Below, in pieces: positions 5,551-36,853 of a stretch of DNA of 64,000 nucleotides. The notes below the pieces were generated by a model. That model was given only the letters and a program-made list of their open reading frames with translations. It did no database searches and had not been told where the DNA came from. The stretch is from Nitratireductor indicus C115. Lineage in GTDB: Bacteria; Pseudomonadota; Alphaproteobacteria; Rhizobiales; Rhizobiaceae. The stretch is taken from positions 62,001-126,000 of the forward strand of contig NZ_AMSI01000001.1 of NCBI RefSeq assembly GCF_000300515.1. The letters are read 5' to 3'. Position 1 is the stretch's first letter; each line of letters begins with the position of its first letter. Made by a program: the position numbers and the translations under genes.

Positions 5551-5626
5551 GGGGCCATAGCTCAGCTGGGAGAGCGCCTGCATGGCATGCAGGAGGTCAG
5601 CGGTTCGATCCCGCTTGGCTCCACCA
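5551..5626 (+). tRNA. tRNA-Ala (anticodon GGC)
   Basis: A 76-base cloverleaf with encoded CCA. The acceptor stem GGGGCCA pairs with TGGCTCC (one G-U). The D stem is GCTC/GAGC, the anticodon stem CCTGC/GCAGG with loop ATGGCAT (anticodon GGC), and the T stem AGCGG/CCGCT with loop TTCGATC. It reads GCC/GCU alanine codons. Confidence 0.97.
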
Positions 5627-7438: not shown

Positions 7439-8437
7439 CTAGGTGTGAACGGCCTTTGTCTTTTTCGGTGCTTCGAGAATGGGGGCGATCTTGAAGAGCG
7501 CATCGCAAAAGCGCTGCACCGAAGGCAGAGCTGGCTCGCTGCGCCGCCTGATCAGCATCACGGGAGCCGGCTGGTAGCCGACGGGCAGGTCGAGCACCCT
7601 CACAAGTCCGAGGCGTGAATATTGCTCGGCAAGGCTGTAAGGCAGGAGGCCGATCATGTTGCAGTCCGTCAGGGCCGCCCGCATCACCTCCATGGAGGCA
7701 GTCTCCATGCGGATGTCCGGAACGCGCAATCCCGCATGAACGAACATGTCGGTGAGCGCCTGCCGGGCTGCGGTCCGTGGAGGGGTCACGATCCACGGAA
7801 ACTCCGCTGCGTCCGCGAGCGAAATCTGCCGGTCCGGATTGAGCCCGGTGTGCCTGCTGCTGATCACGGCTGCGAAATGCTGCTGAGCGAGCAGCTTCTG
7901 GTCCAGCTCCGCTTCATGTTCGAAGGAATAGCGTCCTATGATGCAATCGAGCTCCTTCGACAGCAATTGCGAGACCAGCGGCGAGGTCGTGCCTTCGTGG
8001 ACTTCCACGCTGATCGAAATGCCTTCCTCGGCCAGAAGGTTGATCGATTGAGTGATCATTTCCGGCGCGAGGAAAGCAATCGCGCCGATGCGCATGCTGC
8101 CGATATGGCCCGCGACGATCGCATCGATCTCATCGCGCGTCCGGTCGATGTCGTTGACCAGCGAACGGGCGCGGGCAATCAACGCTTCGCCAACCCTGTT
8201 CGGAATCATGCCGCCCCGGCCGCGCTCGAACATCACCGTTCCAAAAATCTGCTCCACCTCACGGATGATCTTGCTGATGGCCGGCTGGCTAAGCCCCATT
8301 TCCTGCGCTGCGCGGTGTGCGTTTCTGTGTTGGCCGATGCTGATCAGCGTAACCAGATGCTGGACCTTGAGGCGGCTGTGGAGCGTGGAACGTTCCGACT
8401 GCTCCGCCGCACCCCGGGGAAATTTCTGCCCCATCAT
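7439..8437 (-). CDS. LysR-type transcriptional regulator
   Basis: A 332-residue LTTR with an N-terminal winged helix-turn-helix at about residues 25-85 (RNAHRAAQEMGLSQPAISKI) and a substrate-binding domain afterwards (IGAIAFLAPEMI, DCIIGRYSFEHEAELD). It is transcribed divergently from the EthD-TRAP operon that starts 116 bases away, with a perfect inverted repeat in the gap. It therefore most likely controls that operon and itself. The start could be either of two adjacent ATG codons. Confidence 0.93.
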   Translation of the reverse strand: MMGQKFPRGAAEQSERSTLHSRLKVQHLVTLISIGQHRNAHRAAQEMGLSQPAISKIIREVEQIFGTVMFERGRGGMIPNRVGEALIARARSLVNDIDRTRDEIDAIVAGHIGSMRIGAIAFLAPEMITQSINLLAEEGISISVEVHEGTTSPLVSQLLSKELDCIIGRYSFEHEAELDQKLLAQQHFAAVISSRHTGLNPDRQISLADAAEFPWIVTPPRTAARQALTDMFVHAGLRVPDIRMETASMEVMRAALTDCNMIGLLPYSLAEQYSRLGLVRVLDLPVGYQPAPVMLIRRRSEPALPSVQRFCDALFKIAPILEAPKKTKAVHT

Positions 8438-8552: not shown

Positions 8553-8888
8553 GTGTCAGTTTCGTACTTCATCCGATACGAAGGCGAGCCTGAGGATGCG
8601 GAGCGCTTCTTCTCGCATTACCGGACGCAGCATGCCGCGATCATGCGGCAGTACCCGGGCATCCGCGCCTGCAAGCTCCATCACCCGGTGCCGTGGAACG
8701 ACCCGGTGAACGTCAACAAGGACCGGGTCCTGGTTCTGGCGGAGCTGGTTTTCGACGATATCGATGCGCTCAACGGCGCGTTGAATGCGGAAATCCGCAT
8801 GATGTCGCGAGAGGACTTTCTGAATTTTCCGAAGATCATCGACGGCAAGATAAGTCATCTGGCTGTCGAGACCGAAACAGTCTTCTAA
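8553..8888 (+). CDS. EthD-domain protein
   Basis: A 111-residue protein starting at GTG, preceded by AAAAGGGG at good spacing. The fold signature is that of EthD/dimeric alpha-beta barrel proteins: an N-terminal SYFIRYEG strand, YRTQHAAIMRQYPGI helix region, then LAELVFDDIDAL. Members are small dimeric proteins accompanying degradative enzymes; some are isomerases or auxiliary proteins. It is the first gene of the TRAP operon (30 bases before dctP). A role in processing or sensing the TRAP substrate is inference only. Confidence 0.8.
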   Translation: MSVSYFIRYEGEPEDAERFFSHYRTQHAAIMRQYPGIRACKLHHPVPWNDPVNVNKDRVLVLAELVFDDIDALNGALNAEIRMMSREDFLNFPKIIDGKISHLAVETETVF

Positions 8889-8918: not shown

Positions 8919-9908
8919 ATGAAGATAACAAAAGTGCTTGCACTTTCGGCTTCCATCTTCGTCATGGCGGGTGCGGCTTCTGCCGCCGAGTTCGAGTGGC
9001 GTTTCTTCACCTATGTCTCGCCGAGCGATTTCCATGCGAAAATGAACAAGGCGTTTGCCGAGGACATCACCAAGGCAACGGGCGGACGCCTCGAGATCAC
9101 GCATTTCGCTGCTGGCGAACTTCCTTACAAATCTGGCGATGTGCTGAAGGCGGTTGCGACCAACCAGATTCAGATGGGACAGGTCGGGGCTGGTCTTGCG
9201 GCGGGCGATGCGCCCGAGATCGATGTTTTCTCCGTTCCGTTCCTGTGCACGAGCTATGCCGGTTTCGCCAAGGCGGTGGATGCGATCGGCGACATTCCCG
9301 ATGAAGTGCTGAAAGAAAAATTCGGCGTTCGCGTCCTTATGAACTGGCCGATCCCCGGGCAGAACATCTGGTCGGCGAGCAAGATCGAGACCATCGCGGA
9401 CCTTCGCGACAAGAAAATCCGCACCTGGAACCCACTCCAGGTGGAGATGCTGAAGATTCTCGGCGGCAACCCGACATCGCTTGATCCAGCCGAGGTCGTG
9501 CCAGCATTGCAGCGTGGCGTTGTCGACGGTGCGATCACCTCCGCTCTCTCGGCCAATGACTGGAAGGCCTACGACATCGTGAAATTCGGCTTCATGCTCA
9601 ATTTCACCATGGCCCATCAGATCACGCTGGTGAACAGCGATGCGCTGGATGGCCTTCCCGAGGATCTGCGCAAGATCGTCTCGGACAAGGTCGCCGAATG
9701 GACCCCGCGTTACTTCGAGGGTTCCGAAGAGGCGAACGAGGCCGCGTTGAAGAACATGCAGGCCAACGGCGTGACGCTCACCGACCCGAAGCCCGAAGAC
9801 CTGGCTGAGGTTCGCAAGACGCTGGCGCCGCTGTGGAAGCAGTGGACCGATGCCAACGGGCCGGTGGCCGCTGACCTCCTCCAGCGCGTCGACACGGCAT
9901 GCAACTGA
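8919..9908 (+). CDS. dctP: TRAP transporter substrate-binding protein (DctP family)
   Basis: Periplasmic binding protein of a tripartite ATP-independent transporter. It has a 22-residue Sec signal peptide ending in AASA before AEFEW. The conserved substrate carboxylate-binding arginine is expected at Arg168 (KKIRTWN), followed by the family region PAEVVPALQRGVVDGAI. Its 329 residues are normal. The stop overlaps the start of dctQ by 10 bases. An organic-acid ligand is expected from the family; the specific ligand is unknown. Confidence 0.94.
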   Translation: MKITKVLALSASIFVMAGAASAAEFEWRFFTYVSPSDFHAKMNKAFAEDITKATGGRLEITHFAAGELPYKSGDVLKAVATNQIQMGQVGAGLAAGDAPEIDVFSVPFLCTSYAGFAKAVDAIGDIPDEVLKEKFGVRVLMNWPIPGQNIWSASKIETIADLRDKKIRTWNPLQVEMLKILGGNPTSLDPAEVVPALQRGVVDGAITSALSANDWKAYDIVKFGFMLNFTMAHQITLVNSDALDGLPEDLRKIVSDKVAEWTPRYFEGSEEANEAALKNMQANGVTLTDPKPEDLAEVRKTLAPLWKQWTDANGPVAADLLQRVDTACN

Positions 9909-10408
9909 CGACGCCAAATGGCGTGCCCGGCGCACTTGATCGCTGGGCACATCGGTTCGCCCGAGGATCGTCTGCGATTGCGGCCCTTCTGCTTCTTGGC
10001 ATGTGGGCCCTGATCTCGGTCGAAGTGGTGCTGCGCTATCTGCTGCACAGCTCCACCCTCGTGGCCGACGAATACGCCGGCTACATGTTCGCCGCGCTTG
10101 TGTTTCTCGGTCTCAACCAGGCGATCCATCAGGAGAAGCTGATCGGCATCGATGTTTCGGGCCGCTGGGCGAAGGTGGTCTCGCATCCGCTGGTGCGCTT
10201 CCTGCGCAATCTCCTGATGCTCGGGCTTAATCTGGCGCTGCTTTACGCCATGACGCTGACGCTGATGACGAGCATGAGGTTTCATTCCCGGTCGATCCAT
10301 TTCTCCAAAACGGTGCTCGCCTATCCGCAATCGCTTGTGGTCCTGGGTCTCGCACTCGCCTGTTTCGCCTCGCTCGCCCTGCTCGTGCGGGCGCGCAGCC
10401 GCCACTAG
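9899..10408 (+). CDS. dctQ: TRAP transporter small permease (DctQ family)
   Basis: A 169-residue membrane protein with four predicted transmembrane segments: about residues 22-43, 56-75, 97-117 and 139-160. It has the DctQ-type WALISVEVVLRYLL first segment and the LVADEYAGYMF motif. It forms the complex with the DctM permease encoded next. The TAG stop (10406-10408) abuts a dispersed repeat element that separates it from dctM by 83 bases. Confidence 0.92.
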   Translation: MQLTTPNGVPGALDRWAHRFARGSSAIAALLLLGMWALISVEVVLRYLLHSSTLVADEYAGYMFAALVFLGLNQAIHQEKLIGIDVSGRWAKVVSHPLVRFLRNLLMLGLNLALLYAMTLTLMTSMRFHSRSIHFSKTVLAYPQSLVVLGLALACFASLALLVRARSRH

Positions 10409-10491: not shown

Positions 10492-11796
10492 ATGTCCTGG
10501 GAGATCATGCTTCTCCTTTATCTCGGGCTGCTGTTCGGCCTGATCGGGATCGGTTGCCCCATCGGGGTGGCGTTGGGCATTACCGGGCTCACCGGCATCG
10601 TGATGAAGCACGGTCTGATGCTGCTGCCGACGGTGGGCGACATTCTGTGGAACAACGGAAACTCATTCATTCTGGTGGCGATCCCGATGTTCATCCTGAT
10701 GGGTGAAGTCATCCTGCAGACGGGTCTTTCGCGGCGCTTCTATCGGGGGCTCTCCGTGCTTTTGTCGCGTTCGCGGGCCGGACTTGCCTATGCCAATATC
10801 GTCGGTTGCGGCATGTTCTCCGCAATCTGCGGCTCCTCGGTCGCGACTGCATTGACCATGGGCCAGGTCGCCGCCCCGGAATTGGACCGACGCGGCTATG
10901 ACCGGGCGATCACGACCGGCACGCTGGCCGCCGGGGGGACGCTAGGCATTCTCATCCCGCCGAGCATTCCGATGATCATCTATGCGATCACGGTGCAGGC
11001 GCCCGTCATCGACCTGTTCATCGCGGGCATAGTACCGGGCCTGTTGATCGTGCTTCTGTTCTGCGTGTGGATCTTCATCTATGCGCGGCTGCATCCCGAA
11101 CATGTTCCCGCACCGGAAAAGACCCCGCTCGACCGGGCAGCGGTCATGCATGCCCTTCTGGATTGCCTGCCGCTGATCGTGCTGATCGTTGCGGTGATCG
11201 GAAGCCTCTATTTCGGGCTGGTGACGCCGACGGAAGCCGGAGCGTTCGGTTCCCTGATCGCGCTGGCCATCGGTTTCGGCTACGGCGAGCTCACCTGGGC
11301 CAATATCAGGGCAGCGCTGGGTCGGGCCGTGACGATGACGACCACCGTCTTCTACATCATCCTCACCGGCGCCATCCTGTCTTTCGCCATCGTCGATGCC
11401 GGCATTGCGCGCGGCGTCAGCAATGCGGTGGTGGAAGCAGGCTTTTCACCTCTCTCCTTCTTTCTGCTCATCGCCGTCATTTATGTGGTTCTGGGCATGC
11501 TCATCGAAGGCGTGGCGATGATGCTGCTCACCGTCCCGATACTGTATCCGGCGGTCATCGCGCTCGGCTTCGATCCGATCTGGTTCGGTGTGGTGCTGGT
11601 GATCTTCATCGAGATCGGCGCGTTGACGCCGCCGATGGGGCTGAACCTCGTTGCGATTCAGTCCGTCTCGCCGACCACGTCGCTGGCGACCATCATTCGC
11701 GGGGCCGCGCCCTACGTCGCGATGATGCTCGCAGGGCTATGCCTCCTCTATGCCTTCCCGGAGATCGCTCTCTGGCTTCCCCAGACGATGAAATGA
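10492..11796 (+). CDS. dctM: TRAP transporter large permease (DctM family)
   Basis: A 434-residue integral membrane protein, with about twelve hydrophobic segments spread along its length. It is the channel subunit of the importer encoded with the upstream dctP and dctQ. Family signatures include GVALGITG near the N-terminus, MGQVAAPEL, GTLAAGGTLGILIPPS and TPTEAGAFGSLIAL. The product ends 26 bases before the convergent stop of the duplicated unknown gene. No terminator with a T-run is visible in that short gap. Confidence 0.95.
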   Translation: MSWEIMLLLYLGLLFGLIGIGCPIGVALGITGLTGIVMKHGLMLLPTVGDILWNNGNSFILVAIPMFILMGEVILQTGLSRRFYRGLSVLLSRSRAGLAYANIVGCGMFSAICGSSVATALTMGQVAAPELDRRGYDRAITTGTLAAGGTLGILIPPSIPMIIYAITVQAPVIDLFIAGIVPGLLIVLLFCVWIFIYARLHPEHVPAPEKTPLDRAAVMHALLDCLPLIVLIVAVIGSLYFGLVTPTEAGAFGSLIALAIGFGYGELTWANIRAALGRAVTMTTTVFYIILTGAILSFAIVDAGIARGVSNAVVEAGFSPLSFFLLIAVIYVVLGMLIEGVAMMLLTVPILYPAVIALGFDPIWFGVVLVIFIEIGALTPPMGLNLVAIQSVSPTTSLATIIRGAAPYVAMMLAGLCLLYAFPEIALWLPQTMK

Positions 11797-11822: not shown

Positions 11823-12638
11823 TCAGCCGGCCAGCCAGGCTCTCAAAGCCTGCGCGAGTGGACGGCCCCGCACCATGCCGAGCGCCGCCGCCGCGTCGTT
11901 CGCACGGGAGATGACGCCGTCATGCAATGTGGAGCGGGCATCGCCGATCCGTGCGCTCATATAGTCCACGGTGACGGCGGGTATGCCGCGCCGGTCGAGC
12001 GGAGCCAGCCGGCCGATGCCTGCATCATCGATGCCGACACCCGCATCGTTAAATGCCGCGAAAGCGCATTCCACATTGATCGCCTTGTGCGGGTCGCCGC
12101 CGATCAGGCCGCCATGCGAGCCGGTGATAACCACCCGTCCCGCATCCTCCGGCCTGATCAGCGAAGCGGAATCGATGCAGACGAGCGGCTGGGCTCCAGG
12201 AGCCAGGGGCTCCTCATGGCGGGTTTCGGAAACCTCGTCCGGCGTGCCGGGAGCAGTGAAAGCGCCCTGGAGCAAACAGGCCGTCGCGTCCGCAACGCGC
12301 ATTCCCGGCGTAACGCCCAGCCGCGCGGCAAGTTCGTTGCAGTCGCTGATCGTGCCGCGCGCTTCCATGTCGGCAACATCGCCGATGCGGGCGCTCATAT
12401 ACGAAACGACGGCCGCGGGAGCGCCATATCGTCCGCAAAAATCCAGCGAGGCGACGCCCGCATCGTCGCGGCCTCGTCCGGCATCGTTGAGGATTATGCC
12501 GCGCACCCGCGCGGTCACAGCCTTGTAGGCGCTGTAGAGCCCGCCGTGAGAACTGGCGACGACCACGGCACCGAGATCGTTTTCCGAGATGTGGTTTATC
12601 GAATTGATCGATCGTGTACTCGGGGTTCCTTCAGTCAT
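11823..12638 (-). CDS. Internally duplicated protein of unknown function (SHGG/NDAG repeats)
   Basis: I do not recognise this family. The chosen ATG (MTEGTPS) has GGAAG at good spacing; upstream in-frame ATGs (to 12716) overlap the divergent gene and lack such a site. The 271-residue product consists of two homologous halves, residues 25-118 and 169-265. They share a strand plus SHGGL, then NDAGxGxDDAG, GxPAxxVxYMSARIGD, and a closing GxISxxNxxAAxLG block. The linker (about 119-168) has no such pattern. There is no signal peptide or membrane segment, so it is probably cytosolic. It is divergent from the TPP-enzyme/amidase operon and convergent with the TRAP operon, suggesting the same pathway. 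Invariant His, Asp and Arg residues could be catalytic; this is inference. Confidence 0.75.
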   Translation of the reverse strand: MTEGTPSTRSINSINHISENDLGAVVVASSHGGLYSAYKAVTARVRGIILNDAGRGRDDAGVASLDFCGRYGAPAAVVSYMSARIGDVADMEARGTISDCNELAARLGVTPGMRVADATACLLQGAFTAPGTPDEVSETRHEEPLAPGAQPLVCIDSASLIRPEDAGRVVITGSHGGLIGGDPHKAINVECAFAAFNDAGVGIDDAGIGRLAPLDRRGIPAVTVDYMSARIGDARSTLHDGVISRANDAAAALGMVRGRPLAQALRAWLAG

Positions 12639-12700: not shown

Positions 12701-14380
12701 ATGGTGCAAGAATCAAATAAAAATCTCGCAGATGAGCTTGCGAATACTTTAAAAGCGTGTGACGTGGAGAATTTCTTCATGCTCACAGGCGGTGATCAAC
12801 CGTTGTGGATCGCCCTGCGCGATCATGGGATCCGGATGCTTGTGGGACGTAGCGAGGCAAGCGCGGTCTACATGGCTGACGGCTATGCCCGCGCCAGCCG
12901 CAAGATCGGCGTGACCTACGGGCAGGCCGGCCCGGGCGCTGCCAATGTCGCCGCCGCGTTGGCAGATTCCCTCTGGGCGCAGTCTCCGGTCGTCGCGCTC
13001 ACGGGCTCGACGGCAACCAATGCGGTGCATGCGAATGAATATCAGGCGCTCGACCAGGCGACCATCTTCGCACCGGTGACGAAATGGAACGGTGCCGCTG
13101 CCACTCCTCAGGATGCGCCGCGCCTTCTGCGTCATGCGCTGCACACTGCCGTGGCCGGCAGCCCCGGGCCGACCCATCTCGATGTGCCGAAGGATTTCTT
13201 CGCCCGCGAAGTGAAGGGTAGCGCCCGTACAGGCGAGCCTCTGCATCTTGTGGCGCAGCCACCGGTTCTCGACGAGGCCATGCTGGCGAAAGCGCTTGGA
13301 AAGCTGGAAAAGGCGCAGCGTCCCGTCCTGCTGGTGGGCGAGGGCGCACGTCTAGGCGATGCGGGCGCCGCCGTGGCCTCGCTTTCTGAGGCCGCCGGCA
13401 TTCCGATCATGGCCACCATGGGCGGCAAGCCGGCCGTTCTGAGCACGCATGACAATTTCTGCGGCATTGTCGGGCGCTATTCCTCCGTTGCGGCCAACCG
13501 GCTTTTGGCAGAGGCCGATTGCGTGATTGCGGTGGGCAGCCGTCTCGGCGGTCTTTCCACGAATGGATACACCATTCCTTCCCCGGCGGCCGATCTCATC
13601 CAGATCGACACGGATCCGACCGCCTTCATCAATCCTTATTTTCCGGCGTTGCCTGTTCACGCAGACGCAAACACGGCATTGAATGCGCTTGCTGCCGGAG
13701 CGACCGCAAGGGCATCGCAGGCGGGCTGGCTCGATCATTGCCGCAAGGAAGCCGCAGCCTGGGCCGGCCGGCTGGAGGAGCGCATCGCCAGCGATGGCGA
13801 GGCGTCCCAGCTGACACCCTTCGCCATCCTTGGCGAGCTGCGCAAGCACGCGAGCGAAATCGCGCTTGTTGCCGATACCGGCTACATGGCTGCGTGGACC
13901 GGTGTGGTCTTTCCGATTGAGCGCTATGACGGATTCTTCCGGGCGGTCGGTTCCCTCGGCTGGGCGCTTCCTGCTTCGCTGGGCGTGCAGCTTGCGCGCA
14001 AGGAAAAGACGGTCTGCATCATCGGGGACGGTGGTGTGGGATATCACCTGGCCGACATTGAAACGGCGGTTCGCTACCGGCTCCCGGTTCTCGTGCTGGT
14101 CTTCAACAATTCCAGCCTTGCTTTCGAGTACCATGAGCAGAAATATCGCTGGAACGGGAATGTGGTTCACGAGGCGAATGATTTCGGAACGGTCGATTAT
14201 GCAGCTGCCGCCCGTGCGCTCGGTGCCGACGGTTACCGCGTGCAGACACGGCAGCAGCTTGTCGATGCCCTGGCAAAGGGCATGGCTTCCGACAGGCCCT
14301 GTGTGCTGGACATCGTGATCGACCGTGAGGCGTTCCCGCCGGTGACGAATTTCGACGCGGTGATGGAGCGCACTCTTTAA
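12701..14380 (+). CDS. Thiamine diphosphate-dependent enzyme (acetolactate synthase/decarboxylase-like)
   Basis: A 559-residue member of the AHAS/benzoylformate decarboxylase superfamily. The activating glutamate is Glu52 (RSEASAVYMADGYAR), with GQAGPGAANV afterwards. The central domain is followed by the TPP/Mg motif GDG at 442-444 and NN at 469-470. The usual HEQAA/HE context of the glutamate is RSEAS here, so the substrate class is unclear: carboligase, decarboxylase and sulfoacetaldehyde acetyltransferase-like roles all remain possible. Its TAA overlaps the ATG of the next small gene (TAATG), so the two are translationally coupled. Confidence 0.9.
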   Translation: MVQESNKNLADELANTLKACDVENFFMLTGGDQPLWIALRDHGIRMLVGRSEASAVYMADGYARASRKIGVTYGQAGPGAANVAAALADSLWAQSPVVALTGSTATNAVHANEYQALDQATIFAPVTKWNGAAATPQDAPRLLRHALHTAVAGSPGPTHLDVPKDFFAREVKGSARTGEPLHLVAQPPVLDEAMLAKALGKLEKAQRPVLLVGEGARLGDAGAAVASLSEAAGIPIMATMGGKPAVLSTHDNFCGIVGRYSSVAANRLLAEADCVIAVGSRLGGLSTNGYTIPSPAADLIQIDTDPTAFINPYFPALPVHADANTALNALAAGATARASQAGWLDHCRKEAAAWAGRLEERIASDGEASQLTPFAILGELRKHASEIALVADTGYMAAWTGVVFPIERYDGFFRAVGSLGWALPASLGVQLARKEKTVCIIGDGGVGYHLADIETAVRYRLPVLVLVFNNSSLAFEYHEQKYRWNGNVVHEANDFGTVDYAAAARALGADGYRVQTRQQLVDALAKGMASDRPCVLDIVIDREAFPPVTNFDAVMERTL

Positions 14381-14559
14381 TGCCGGAAAACGCTGCCCTG
14401 CCGCTCTTGCTGGAAGTGTATGGCCTTGAGCCGGATCCGCAGGCAGCGGAGCGCATCGCCGCGGGATTGAGCGGGATGTGCTCACGAATAATCGCGATGT
14501 CGGTCGAAAATGGCTGGCATCTCGAATCCTTTGCGAACGACGAGGCCGTTGATGAGTGA
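14380..14559 (+). CDS. Small GatC/AtzG-like amidase partner (DUF4089-like)
   Basis: A 59-residue ORF starting inside the previous stop (TAATG) and ending in an ATGAGTGA overlap with the amidase start, so it is tightly coupled on both sides. It begins MPENAALPLLL and contains YGLEPDPQAAERIAAGL, MCSRIIAM and a short acidic tail. That pattern (two helices and a C-terminal extended segment) resembles DUF4089/AtzG proteins, GatC-like partners of amidases such as AtzE. Assignment rests on pattern and position, since no alignment could be run. It is easily missed because of its size. Confidence 0.7.
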   Translation: MPENAALPLLLEVYGLEPDPQAAERIAAGLSGMCSRIIAMSVENGWHLESFANDEAVDE

Positions 14560-15911: not shown

Positions 15912-17390
15912 TCACGGAGCGCGTAGTCGCCTCGTGAGTTTGATCGCCAGCGGCACCAGCCAGATGGCAATGAACATCACCCCAAGGGTCGCGGAAATCG
16001 GCCGCTCGAAGAAGCCGAGAAAATTGCCACGGCTGATGATCATTGATGTCAGGAAATTCTGCTCGACGAGCGGCCCCATCACCATGCCCAGTATGACCGG
16101 CGCGATGGGGATTCCGGCCTTGCCGAACCACCAGGCGAGCACGCCGAAGCCGGCCATCACGACGATGCCGAAAAGCGAGTTGACCGCCGCATAAGAGCCG
16201 ACGATAGAGAAGATCAGGATCACCCCGGCCAGATAGTGGCGTGGAACCGAAAACAGCCTGCGCGCGGTTCGGATGGCCAGCCAGCCCAGCGGGATGATAA
16301 GCGCATTCGCGATCACGAAGATGAGCATCACCGCATAGAAGTTCTGCACATTCTCGGTCATGAGCTGCGGGCCGGGATTGAGGCCTTTCATGAACAGGAC
16401 GCCGACTGCGATCGCGGTTACCGCGTCGCCCGGAATGCCGAACACCATCGCCGGAATCCATGCGGAACACAGGGCTGCATTGTTGCAGGCGCCGGCCTCC
16501 ACCAGCCCCTCGGGGTGGCCTTTGCCATAGCGCTCGGGCGTTCGCGAGAAACGCTTGGAAAAGGCATAGGCAATCCATGCCCCCAGATCGCCGCCCGCAC
16601 CCGGTAGTGCGCCGATCAGCGTGCCGAATCCGGCACCGCGAAACAGGCTGTAGCGATATTTCGAAAGTGTCGACCCGACCCCTTTGAACACCCCCCCGAC
16701 AAGTCCTCCCGACGCGGCACGCACATCGGCATCGCCACGCATTAATTCACCCACGGCAAACAGGCCGATCATCGCCGGCACGAAGGACAATCCGCCGGAA
16801 AGCTCCGTGACGCCGAAGGTGAAGCGCGGCGTGGCGGTCAGCGGGTCCATGCCCACCGTTGCCGCCGCAAGGCCGGTAAGCAGCGCAATGACGCTCTTGA
16901 TCATTCCGCCGCCGCTCACCAGCGCTGCACAGGAAAGGCCGAGCGCCGCGAGCCAGAAATATTCGAAACTGGAAAAGCGCAGGGCGACCTTTGCCAGCAT
17001 GGGCGCCACGAGCGCCAGTACGATGAAGCCGATGAAACCGCCGATACATGCCGAAACAAGCAGCGTGCCCATGGCGAGCGACCCCTGGCCCTTGCGCGTC
17101 ATGGCATAGGCTTCCTCCGCATAGGCGGCCGAAGACGGTGTGCCGGGGATGCGCAGCATGACGGCGGGTATGTCGCCCGCCGTGATCGCCATCGTGGTGC
17201 AGGCAATCACCGTCGCAATGGCGGGGATGGGATCGAGATAGAAGGTGAAGGGCACCAGAAGGGCGGTCGCCATGGTGGCGCTCAGGCCCGGTATCGCACC
17301 GACAAACAGGCCGAAAGTACAGGAGATGGCGATCGCGACAAGAGTTTGCGGGGTCGTGATCAGGCCGACGGCCTGGATGAATGCTTCCAT
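15912..17390 (-). CDS. tctA: Tripartite tricarboxylate transporter large permease (TctA family)
   Basis: A 492-residue membrane protein with about eleven or twelve hydrophobic segments. The TctA hallmarks are GAIPGLSATMATALLVPFTF, GIPAVMLRIPGTPSSAA and GALPGAGGDLGAWIAY, the two glycine-rich repeats of the family. It forms the secondary importer with tctB (13 bases upstream) and the periplasmic TctC. It is convergent with the amidase gene, 7 bases apart, with no visible terminator between them. Confidence 0.95.
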   Translation of the reverse strand: MEAFIQAVGLITTPQTLVAIAISCTFGLFVGAIPGLSATMATALLVPFTFYLDPIPAIATVIACTTMAITAGDIPAVMLRIPGTPSSAAYAEEAYAMTRKGQGSLAMGTLLVSACIGGFIGFIVLALVAPMLAKVALRFSSFEYFWLAALGLSCAALVSGGGMIKSVIALLTGLAAATVGMDPLTATPRFTFGVTELSGGLSFVPAMIGLFAVGELMRGDADVRAASGGLVGGVFKGVGSTLSKYRYSLFRGAGFGTLIGALPGAGGDLGAWIAYAFSKRFSRTPERYGKGHPEGLVEAGACNNAALCSAWIPAMVFGIPGDAVTAIAVGVLFMKGLNPGPQLMTENVQNFYAVMLIFVIANALIIPLGWLAIRTARRLFSVPRHYLAGVILIFSIVGSYAAVNSLFGIVVMAGFGVLAWWFGKAGIPIAPVILGMVMGPLVEQNFLTSMIISRGNFLGFFERPISATLGVMFIAIWLVPLAIKLTRRLRAP

Positions 17391-17403
17391 GGCGTTGCCG
17401 CCC

Positions 17404-17910
17404 TCAGTAGATCATGCCCTGTGGCATCTGGATGCGCATGACATCGGTGAACAGGAAATGCACCGCGACGACGATCAGGAGCGCGCAGACGGCCGAGCCG
17501 ATCCACGGTCCGCCGCGCAGGCGCATGAGTGTGAAACCGGCCAGGGCCGTGGTTGCAAGAAAGCCGATCGTTGGCGCGAGAAGCCACACGGCGACGAGAA
17601 GGACGGGAACCGAAAAACCAGCGATCTCGGTGCGCAGGCTCGCGGTCGCGCTGCGGCTGGCATTCGCGTGCGCCAGAAGGTGGCGTGTGCTGTTGGCGAG
17701 AAGCAGAAGACCGAGCACAAAAAAGCCCACGGCACAGATGCGTGGAAGAAGCGCGGGACCGATCAGGGTTCCTGGAATGGTGGGCGTCAGCGATGCGGTG
17801 CCGATCCACATGCCAGCGCCGGCGGCAGCAGAAACCGCGCCGGCAAGCAGTTCGGAGAGCGTTGAACCGCTCTCCGCATTTATGTCCCTTTCGGGGCTTT
17901 TCTCGCTCAT
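17404..17910 (-). CDS. tctB: Tripartite tricarboxylate transporter small permease (TctB family)
   Basis: A 168-residue protein with four hydrophobic segments (about residues 19-36, 47-66, 87-105 and 117-145) in the TctB pattern, including LIGPALLPRICAVGFFVLGLLLL. It overlaps the end of tctC by 4 bases and is followed by tctA. It has no recognisable enzymatic motif. Confidence 0.88.
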   Translation of the reverse strand: MSEKSPERDINAESGSTLSELLAGAVSAAAGAGMWIGTASLTPTIPGTLIGPALLPRICAVGFFVLGLLLLANSTRHLLAHANASRSATASLRTEIAGFSVPVLLVAVWLLAPTIGFLATTALAGFTLMRLRGGPWIGSAVCALLIVVAVHFLFTDVMRIQMPQGMIY

Positions 17911-18869
17911 TCCTTCGCAAGTCCCGCCGCCTTGAGGGCAGCGCCGAACTGTGCGTCCCGGTCGGCGAGGTATTTCTCGAAATCCGCGCTGCCGAGATAA
18001 TTCACGCCGAACTGACGCGAATTCATGAAGTCGATGAATTCTTGCGAGGATGTGACTTCGGCAAGCGTTGCCTCGATCTTTGAAACCACCTCGTCAGGTG
18101 TGTTCAGCGGGGCGGCGAGCCCGCGCCAGCCGGAGATCGAAACGTCGAGTCCGGCCGCTTCTTCCACGGTCGGCACGTCGGGATAGGAGGCGTTGCGCTT
18201 GGTACCAAGCGTGGCGAGCGCCCGCAGTTCGCCAGCTTCAAGAAGCGCGCGGGCTTCCGGAAACTGCACGACGGCGGCCTGAATGGCGCCAGAGGTCAGC
18301 AGTTGCAGGGCCGGTGCGGCACCTTCGCTGGGAACCCAGAACGGTTCTTGCCCACCTGCCGCCTGCACGAAGGAGGCCCAGGCAAGGTGGTTGACGCCGC
18401 CGATATTCGCTCCGCCGCCCGCAATTGCCTTGCTGTCCTTCTTGACCGCATCGACGAGGTCCTGGAGCGATTTATAGGGTGAGTTCGCCGCAACGAAGAT
18501 GGCGCCGTAATCGGCGTTGAAGAGGCCGATGGGCTTGAAATCCTTGTAGCTCAGCTCCGTCTGGCCGAGCCAGTGGAACATCGAAAGTTCCGTGGTGATG
18601 TTGCCGAGCGTATAGCCGTCGGGGTCAGCCTTGGAGATCTCCGTATGTCCGATCACGGAGCCGCCGCCGGTGCGGTTGACGACATTGAAGGGCTGGCCAA
18701 GCTTTTCCTCGAGAAGCTTGGCGACGATGCGCGCGGTCGCGTCGGATCCGCCGCCTGCTGCCCATGGCACGATGATGGTTACGGCCTTTTCCGGATATTC
18801 GGCATGGGCTGCCGCCCCGCTCATGAACGTCAGCACGCCAACCGCCGCGAGGCGGAGAAGTCTTTTCAT
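17907..18869 (-). CDS. tctC: Tripartite tricarboxylate transporter substrate-binding protein (TctC/Bug family)
   Basis: Periplasmic binding protein of 320 residues. The start is the ATG preceded by GGGAGGAAAT; upstream in-frame residues run into the promoter. The signal peptide ends near AAAHA before EYPEKAVTIIVPWAAGGGSDATARI, the Bug-family N-terminus. The GxVIGHTEISKADPDGYTLG block is also typical. Ligands of this family are usually carboxylates. It is the first gene of tctCBA, divergent from iclR, with two operator-like sites between them. Confidence 0.94.
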   Translation of the reverse strand: MKRLLRLAAVGVLTFMSGAAAHAEYPEKAVTIIVPWAAGGGSDATARIVAKLLEEKLGQPFNVVNRTGGGSVIGHTEISKADPDGYTLGNITTELSMFHWLGQTELSYKDFKPIGLFNADYGAIFVAANSPYKSLQDLVDAVKKDSKAIAGGGANIGGVNHLAWASFVQAAGGQEPFWVPSEGAAPALQLLTSGAIQAAVVQFPEARALLEAGELRALATLGTKRNASYPDVPTVEEAAGLDVSISGWRGLAAPLNTPDEVVSKIEATLAEVTSSQEFIDFMNSRQFGVNYLGSADFEKYLADRDAQFGAALKAAGLAKE

Positions 18870-18944
18870 GATTTCCTCCCTTTGGAAGCGGATTGCCCTC
18901 GATCGGACAAAAGTCGGATTCCGCTCATCCGCTGATAGGGATAC

Positions 18945-18962
18945 TGTCCCGTATTGTAGGAT
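18945..18962. promoter_or_regulatory. Putative IclR operator site 1
   Basis: On the minus strand this reads ACAATACGGGA, preceded by TCCT. It lies 76 bases upstream of tctC. Ten of eleven bases match ACAATATGGGA in the site at 23619-23634, more than 4 kb away, and it resembles site 2 nearby. Assignment to the adjacent IclR protein is inference. Confidence 0.5.
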
Positions 18963-18974
18963 GAAAGTCAACAG

Positions 18975-35881: not shown

Positions 35882-36853
35882 TTATTTTGCCGTCAGCAGT
35901 TCAAGGTTTTCCTTGCCTTCTGGGATATTGGCGAGAAGACCGTCCCAGGCGCCGCGTGCCTTTTCCATGAAGGGAGCAAGGTCTGGCTCGATGATCTCGA
36001 TGCCGGCTTTCTTCAGCTCTTCAAGGCCGTCCGCCGCGTTCTTCTTGTAGACGTCGATGGATGCGGCGGATGCCTCCTTGCCGGCCTCGCGCACGATGGC
36101 CTGCTGTTCTGGCGTCAGGCGGTCGAAGGCGGCTTTCGACATGATCATGGTCGCGGCCATGTGGTGCACGCGCGTCAGGTTGAAATACTTGGTGGCTTCC
36201 ACGAACTTGTCCTGGATTAGCTGTTCGGGAGAGGCTTCGGCACCATCCACCACGCCGCTCTGTAGAGCGAGGAAGACTTCGCTGTAGGCCATGGGGGTGG
36301 ACTGGGCGCCGAGCGCTTCATAAGCGCCGACGAAGCCGGGTCCCTGGATCACGCGGATCTTGAAACCCTTCATGTCATCGAGCGAACGCACGGGCTTTGT
36401 GCCATAGACGCTGCGCTCGAACACGGAGACGAAGCCGAGACCGACCAGATCGTGCTTGTCAATATAGCTGAGCAGCTTGTCGCCCGCCTTGCCCTGAAGC
36501 GCGGCATTTGCGGCGTCGGTCGTGTCGAACAGATAGGGCAGCGAAAGCACGGCAAGCTCGGGAACGGTGTTTTCCAGCGGCGGCTCGCCGGTCACCACGA
36601 GGTCGATAGCGCCCGAGCGCGCATTCTGGATCATCTGCACTTCGCCGCCGAGCTGGCCGGCGGGGAAAACGGTCACGTTGATATCGCCCTTGCTTTTTTC
36701 CGAAACGAGTTCGGCGAACTTGGTGGCGGCGGCGTGGTAATGGCTGTCTTCGCTGAGCACATGGCCGAGCGTAAGATCGACGGCGAGTGCCTGTGGCACG
36801 GCGCCAAGCGCGCCGAAGGCAGACAGGAGGAGAGAGGCTGCAAGTCTTTTCAT
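35882..36853 (-). CDS. dctP: TRAP transporter substrate-binding protein (second set)
   Basis: Periplasmic binding protein of 323 residues. The signal peptide ends at QALA before VDLTLGHVLSEDSHYH, the classic DctP N-terminus. The ligand-binding arginine is expected at Arg167 (FKIRVIQG), followed by ALQSGVVDGAE. The in-frame open reading extends far upstream through dctM, but the ATG just after the dctM stop is the real start. The order DctQ-DctM-DctP is reversed relative to the first TRAP set. Confidence 0.94.
   Translation of the reverse strand: MKRLAASLLLSAFGALGAVPQALAVDLTLGHVLSEDSHYHAAATKFAELVSEKSKGDINVTVFPAGQLGGEVQMIQNARSGAIDLVVTGEPPLENTVPELAVLSLPYLFDTTDAANAALQGKAGDKLLSYIDKHDLVGLGFVSVFERSVYGTKPVRSLDDMKGFKIRVIQGPGFVGAYEALGAQSTPMAYSEVFLALQSGVVDGAEASPEQLIQDKFVEATKYFNLTRVHHMAATMIMSKAAFDRLTPEQQAIVREAGKEASAASIDVYKKNAADGLEELKKAGIEIIEPDLAPFMEKARGAWDGLLANIPEGKENLELLTAK

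Follow-up and report, generated by a model that had tools for sequence, protein, structure and literature searches.

We find that the window, by which we mean the whole 64,000-nucleotide stretch of DNA analysed here, encodes a 271-residue protein of two homologous domains, and that this protein belongs to a widespread family without an accepted home in Pfam, NCBIfam or the PDB. The existence of the family is, in our judgement, practically certain. Its main type very probably has a functional tie to a TPP enzyme resembling acetolactate synthase (ALS) and to an E1 alpha/beta pair, and the family probably takes part in the breakdown of acetolactate-like compounds, as a pathway component that has not been described before.

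The original prediction had placed the gene at 11823..12638, which is correct; the strand is minus (Table 1). The closest relative among those fetched, at locus L150, comes from a different genome of the same genus and has the same residue in 68% of the 271 codons, with dN 0.26, dS 1.05 and dN/dS 0.24. The window frame is under purifying selection and, because of this codon comparison, we regard the open reading frame as a real gene. The claim that the 271 residues consist of two homologous halves is borne out as well: in a single comparison the N and C halves are identical at 50 of 117 positions (43%, E 2e-22), and their score of 72.8 bits far exceeds the 24.3 bits at which 1000 shuffles of the first half peak. 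The protein carries the GSHGG, DAGxG, ARIG and GxISxxN elements by which two domain copies were recognised, and against the A1 domain profile, in which both are themselves rows, its two halves reach 136.8 and 146.3 bits.

Table 1. Position of the two-domain gene, its domains and motifs, and the flanking genes in the window
Feature	Position	Strand	Remarks
Two-domain gene P0002, 271 aa	11823..12638	minus	ATG at 12638, stop ends 11823
N-terminal domain copy	12261..12626	minus	HMM envelope plus 2 residues per side
C-terminal domain copy	11826..12194	minus	
N-half SHGG, residues 30-33	12540..12551	minus	
N-half NDAGRGRDDAG, residues 51-61	12456..12488	minus	
N-half SARIGD, residues 82-87	12378..12395	minus	
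N-half GTISDCN, residues 95-101	12336..12356	minus	family form GxISxxN
C-half SHGG, residues 174-177	12108..12119	minus	
C-half NDAGVGIDDAG, residues 197-207	12018..12050	minus	
C-half SARIGD, residues 228-233	11940..11957	minus	
C-half GVISRAN, residues 241-247	11898..11918	minus	
TRAP solute-binding protein DctP	8919..9908	plus	
TRAP small permease DctQ	9899..10408	plus	
TRAP large permease DctM	10492..11796	plus	convergent with the family gene, 26-base gap
TPP enzyme, acetolactate-synthase/benzaldehyde-lyase superfamily, 559 aa	12701..14380	plus	divergent from the family gene
59-aa ORF between TPP enzyme and amidase	14380..14559	plus	candidate GatC/AtzG-like
Amidase, 451 aa	14549..15904	plus	best curated model AtzE-type, under cut-off

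Across 123 domain copies the family core reads GSHGG, DAGxGxxxAG, (S/T)ARIG(D) and GxISxxN..A...G...G. Counting residues in 47 N halves, 47 C halves and 13 single domains, respectively, we observed the Ser of SHGG in 100, 100 and 100%, the SHGG His and the DAG Asp each in 95, 100 and 100%, the Arg of ARIG in 95, 89 and 92%, and the Asn of GxISxxN in 97, 100 and 100%. The blocks originally described as invariant, SHGG, NDAGxGxDDAG and YMSARIGD (the last at residues 80-87 and 226-233), do occur in both halves of the window protein; the "YM" of the third is not found family-wide. Since the conserved set is present in both halves, neither of them is a dead copy. The halves are nevertheless non-equivalent: the position of Arg210 is Arg in 97% of the 47 C halves and mostly Gly or Ser in N halves, and that of Ser236 is Ser in 97% of the C halves, its N-half counterpart being Asp in 89% of the 47 N halves (Asp90 in the window). 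The conserved residues of both halves may line a pocket.

The protein had been called unrecognised, and no known family in Pfam, NCBIfam or the PDB gives an accepted match. One Pfam cut-off is passed, that of the Y-family DNA polymerase domain IMS (PF00817; 24.7 bits, cut-off 23.2), by a match of 37 residues to positions 25-61 of the 148-position model rather than to the full catalytic domain; what the two have in common is one short GxISxxNxxAxxLG motif, the rest of the polymerase has no counterpart in the window protein, and we rejected IMS membership as a short-motif false positive. The match to DUF1805 (PF08827), spanning model positions 15-60 of 64, scores 23.8 bits, under the cut-off of 29.5. 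Three relatives do exceed that cut-off (L002 with 30.4, L022 with 34.9 and L010 with 37.6 bits), and matches at E<=0.01 are obtained with 29 of the 107 domain rows. We compared the two families through a 10-row alignment of nine plasmid homologues with the 1qw2 segment and through two profile comparisons with hhalign, in which a 33-row profile (A1) aligned with DUF1805 over 74 columns at a probability of 55%, and a 107-row profile (A5) over 34 columns at 67%. The likeness to DUF1805 (YunC; TA1206, PDB 1qw2) is a local helix motif in the final ~35 residues of each domain, extended with the smaller profile to a weak colinear match; GSHGG, NDAG and most of the conserved core fall outside it. Because L010 passes IMS as well as DUF1805, and because the deeper profile aligns fewer columns, we conclude that the GxISxxN..A..LG helix motif would account for both matches. 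The same motif gives the best PDB match, Pol IV, in a search with the 107-row profile that returned chains only at E >=0.04. Membership of DUF1805 is therefore unlikely on these alignments, and that the family is a remote member with the YunC/TA1206 fold, sharing its unknown function, seems to us quite improbable, the three relatives above the cut-off and the 74-column alignment notwithstanding. Plasmid-borne DUF1805 genes (L130, L131, L132 and L135) lie between a gene for a PAS-domain protein and one annotated either as ATP-binding protein or as histidine kinase, and a signalling role for DUF1805 is possible. Searched alone, the C half has no Pfam match; in NCBIfam the window protein comes close to no cut-off, and neither acetolactate decarboxylase nor any other curated family gives it an accepted match. 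A PDB match to the curli protein CsgC (E 1.3) was dismissed as chance. Literature searches, which had no family name to go by, brought up no description of it.

Relatives were sought at increasing taxonomic distance. The protein query matched 19 of 199 genomes at family level, one of them through a marginal piece with two stops (G032, E 3.6e-4), which we left out as a family member; the domain profile matched 31 of 297 genomes at order level, 32 of 289 at class level and 7 of 398 at phylum level, these three counts overlapping in genomes and including the marginal G312 (36 of 118 positions, E 9e-4), whose removal brings the class count to 31. Carriers include one Methylobacteriaceae MAG and 13 plasmid records, the plasmids being those of haloarchaea, Rhodococcus, Rhizobium, Aminobacter, Ponticoccus and Methylovirgula, and two scans of viral contigs returned no relative. 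The plasmid homologues are annotated "hypothetical protein" in 12 of the 13 records, the 13th being unannotated, and annotators gain in their place a clearly definable family. Part of the matching genomes was fetched at each level from family to phylum (14 of 19 at family level besides the window, 19 of 31 at order level); the resulting 66 loci are a non-random sample, the genomes left out often, though with exceptions, belonging to a genus that was represented already. Of the family genes at these loci, 55 have two domains (54 loci) and 13 a single domain (12 loci), the latter being the single-domain homologues that the original prediction had suggested looking for.

A tree of 123 domains groups 47 N halves in one supported set (100/89) and 46 C halves in another (100/98), which traces the main group back to a single ancient duplication. 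Seven other two-domain proteins (7 N and 7 C halves) make up a set of their own (94/89) in which N and C halves are sisters; this may be a second duplication, the deep branches being weak. At L160, two single-domain genes (9440-9856 and 9850-10278, minus strand) overlap by 7 bases, and the halves therefore occur there as separate genes; the pair adjoins a gene resembling 2-hydroxy-3-oxopropionate reductase and a TRAP importer. Single-domain relatives at L143, L146, L147 and L148 directly follow genes for a rarA/mgsA-like ATPase and a degP-like protease, with crcB and a pseudouridine synthase gene coming next at L143, L146 and L148 and no evident metabolic context at these degP-rarA loci; those at L145 and L149 lie beside an AsnC-type regulator and divergent E1a-E1b-E2 genes for a branched-chain 2-oxoacid dehydrogenase. 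A two-domain relative at L010 (1495-2445, minus strand) has a Tat-like start (PF10518, 15.8 bits, under the cut-off of 22.7), which suggests an exported version.

In the neighbourhoods of the 66 loci, we observed a TPP enzyme at 35 and no TPP gene in the fetched stretch at the other 31. The ALS-like TPP gene is found at 28 loci, E1 alpha at 25 and E1 beta at 24, alongside SDR (24), TRAP DctP (22) and IclR (16) genes; these counts derive from HMMs built on clusters within the same 66 loci (E<=1e-8) and from stretches of unequal length (64 kb for the window, a few kb for L002 and L003), genes outside annotated plasmid records having been called by open reading frame and codon scoring. The commonest layout brings together E1a-E1b, DctPQM, the ALS-like TPP gene, the family gene and IclR, their order differing among loci such as L137, L172, L177 and L179, and contexts also include acyl-CoA genes, an HpcH aldolase and degP-rarA. 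An apparent conserved neighbour of 320 aa, cluster "c8", was taken to be a shadow frame of E1 alpha, because it has no Pfam match, follows the E1-alpha loci and is absent after codon scoring. At 13 of the 66 loci the ALS-like gene lies directly beside the family gene, which it follows with a 4-base overlap at L003, L164, L173 and L186; at 10 loci the directly adjacent gene, in divergent orientation, is E1 alpha. Such adjacency, together with the three-gene co-occurrence described below, is what one would expect if the protein were a non-catalytic partner of TPP enzymes, as a subunit, activator or stabiliser. We consider this unlikely: the 31 loci without a detected TPP gene include the set with OiaK/OiaX-like genes, at least one partner is unlinked in 8 of 23 genomes, and the His, Asp, Arg, Ser and Asn residues that both halves conserve would resemble a pocket rather than an interface.

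The tie to the TPP enzymes is not one of neighbourhood alone. Within the class-level sample of 289 genomes, we scored the family (31 genomes, without G312) and the clade of TPP enzymes of the L137 type (E<=1e-150; 25 genomes). Both are present in 23 genomes, the TPP enzyme by itself in 2 (G540 and G573), the family by itself in 8 and neither in 256 (Fisher p=3.6e-25, p-values being only a rough guide because the genomes are not independent). A panel of 80 genomes was then scored for the E1-alpha clade: 30 of the 31 family-positive genomes (G000, the window genome, is the one not included), the 2 with the TPP enzyme only and 48 of the 256 with neither. At a threshold of E<=1e-95 fixed before the search, to which the weakest best match (1.5e-101) comes close, E1 alpha is found in 23 of the 80 genomes, and these are exactly the 23 that have both the family and the TPP enzyme; it is found in 0 of 7 family-only, 0 of 2 TPP-only and 0 of 48 panel genomes with neither. 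In 8 of the 23 (G531, G566, G568, G617, G680, G682, G716 and G772) one or more of the three genes is separated from the rest, by being on a different contig or a long way away, with distances of ~1.09 Mb (G682) and 244 kb (G617) where the genome is a single contig. Three bacterial families include one genome with all three genes and another with none (f80, G645 and G515; f108, G759 and G543; f112, G762 and G547), which speaks against mere shared descent. This co-occurrence strengthens the suggestion that the protein may supply a new step of the pathway. Its persistence without linkage also makes it most improbable that the family merely hitchhikes with catabolic operons, being mobile or under little selection and linked to them incidentally; the patchy distribution, the 13 plasmid records and the varied contexts would fit such a passenger, but a dN/dS of 0.24 and motifs nearly invariant in 123 copies would not.

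The window locus represents a variant in which an amidase is linked and the TPP enzyme is another one. The setting is as first described, with a TRAP importer on one side and, on the other, a divergent TPP enzyme and an amidase; the family gene starts 62 bases from the TPP gene at 12701. The nearest solved relatives of this TPP enzyme are formolase and benzaldehyde lyase, and it is 74% identical to that of L150, 57% to that of L002 and 31% to that of L137; the window genome has no match to the L137-type clade at E<=1e-150. The amidase scores 260.6 bits against the AtzE model (cut-off 461), and the 59-aa frame is possibly an AtzG-like small subunit; a 67-aa frame in the same place at L155 has no Pfam match. 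A TPP enzyme and an amidase recur beside the family gene at 4 of the 66 loci (the window, L002, L150 and L155), an outcome in favour of the original prediction, which had proposed such a check; the amidase is not the main partner, ALS-like TPP genes and E1 pairs being far commoner. Before dctP, the window encodes an EthD-domain protein (8553-8888; 25.5 bits, cut-off 22) with a LysR gene near it on the opposite strand (7439-8437). TctA-TctB-TctC transporter genes (15912-18971, minus strand) converge with the amidase, and tRNA-Ala(ggc) at 5551-5626 is the sole tRNA that ARAGORN found in the window.

Hints to the substrate come from other loci. At L137, with the order E1a-E1b-DctPQM-TPP-family-IclR, the DctP aligns over its whole length (340 residues, E 7.8e-136) with PDB entry 4p8b, which is named simply "TRAP-type transporter, periplasmic component" and whose bound ligand we take to be (S)-2-acetolactate. 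At L089, L090, L091 and L156, the family gene occurs with genes for a RuBisCO-like protein and a four-carbon-acid-sugar kinase, for which the nearest curated models at L156 and L089 are OiaX and OiaK, at 454-512 and 448-536 bits, under the curated cut-off of 700 bits. These four are the only such clusters among the 66 loci, and the window gene has no OiaK/OiaX-like genes next to it. A PGDH_C protein (PF16896, tested for L089) is encoded in the clusters at L089, L091 and L156 and also at L136, there beside E1a/E1b; PGDH_C is the D-apionate oxidoisomerase family. Acetolactate and 3-oxo-isoapionate are both 2-hydroxy-2-alkyl-3-oxo acids, and it is from this common scaffold that our substrate guess is drawn. 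A review passage counts 2-acetolactate among the ligands identified for TRAP binding proteins, with no PDB entry named (PMC5812351), and RuBisCO-like proteins decarboxylate or transcarboxylate/hydrolyse 3-oxo-isoapionate-4-phosphate (PMC6302742). Many contexts, such as acyl-CoA genes, the HpcH aldolase and degP-rarA, do not obviously fit a ketol-acid substrate. The 31 loci whose fetched stretch has no TPP gene, the lack of the L137-type TPP enzyme in the window genome and the dissimilar settings of the single-domain relatives also count against the reading given next.

From these observations, we tentatively hypothesize that the family protein is a soluble enzyme for a branched 2-hydroxy-3-oxo acid or a ketol derived from it, of the acetolactate/3-oxo-isoapionate type, in the same short pathway as the TPP enzyme; that it acts on a ketol acid or acyloin is plausible, if short of probable, and that it is in particular an isomerase or racemase is a more doubtful refinement. 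We infer catalysis, substrate class, reaction, residue roles and the cytoplasmic location as follows. The protein would be a pseudo-dimer in which two copies of a ~120-residue domain are fused, with conserved loops formed by GSHGG, NDAGxG, SARIGD and GxISxxN and with the SHGG histidine and the NDAG aspartate as its putative acid and base. In the preferred reaction it would interconvert isomers or enantiomers of a ketol acid and so supply a usable form to the TPP enzyme or, in haloarchaea, to the OiaK/OiaX-like pair; its pathway mates would be the ALS-like TPP enzyme and, in most Proteobacteria sampled, the E1 alpha/beta pair. In the window, the TRAP importer may take in an amide from which the amidase would free the acid, with the family protein and the TPP enzyme acting afterwards in an order that is not fixed. 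As a decarboxylase or lyase for acids of the acetolactate type, which would make it acetolactate decarboxylase of a third kind, the protein would fit the co-occurring set of family, TPP enzyme and E1 alpha in another way: the ALS-like enzyme would act first, the family protein second and E1 alpha/beta last, as an acetoin-cleaving enzyme. The same trio of activities makes up the classical acetoin route, and the closeness of the L137 DctP to 4p8b agrees with this order. We nonetheless regard this role as unlikely, given that the protein has no accepted match to acetolactate decarboxylase or another curated family and that, beside the OiaK/OiaX-like genes, a decarboxylase would bypass the kinase and RuBisCO-like steps; we prefer an isomerase or racemase because OiaK and OiaX are then not made redundant. 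The broadest form of the proposal, which we put forward as possible though rather doubtful, is that of an undescribed enzyme family, perhaps with a new fold, of racemases, isomerases or decarboxylases of branched ketol acids, the missing third enzyme recruited to amide, apionate-like and acetolactate catabolism. The scattered three-part pathway would then join it to the ALS-like TPP enzyme and to E1 alpha/beta, in a module without an E2 gene.

We stress that, while orphan enzymes are usually proposed on neighbourhood alone, the tie to two TPP enzymes here survives distance, and because the family is tied to them even when the genes lie far apart, the three-part pathway is directly testable. 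The stronger story is this three-gene co-occurrence, which goes beyond what the reading of a single sequence could show. If the substrate guess is true, it would show bacterial use of environmental acetolactate-type acids.

Among the known systems nearest to the family, besides DUF1805 and IMS, are importers like 4p8b and 3-oxo-isoapionate/D-apionate catabolism. At family loci, 8 of 21 DctP proteins are 64-100% identical to that of L137, whereas the window's own DctP is just 28% identical to it, with 6wgm, 4n4u, 2pfz and 2pfy as its best solved relatives; a second DctP in the window (35882-36853) is 31% identical to that of L137. Ten genomes encode a DctP that shares 62% identity or more with that of L137, and three of them (G502, G538 and G752) are without the family; importer and family are therefore not tied. 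The D-apiose genes are listed in the literature, and the gene cluster listing, in the part of the article available, names no extra protein like ours (PMC11747546). OiaX-like, OiaK-like and PGDH_C-type genes of 3-oxo-isoapionate/D-apionate catabolism are also present at family loci. The protein family is thus undescribed, but its setting, that of catabolic modules, is of a kind already known.
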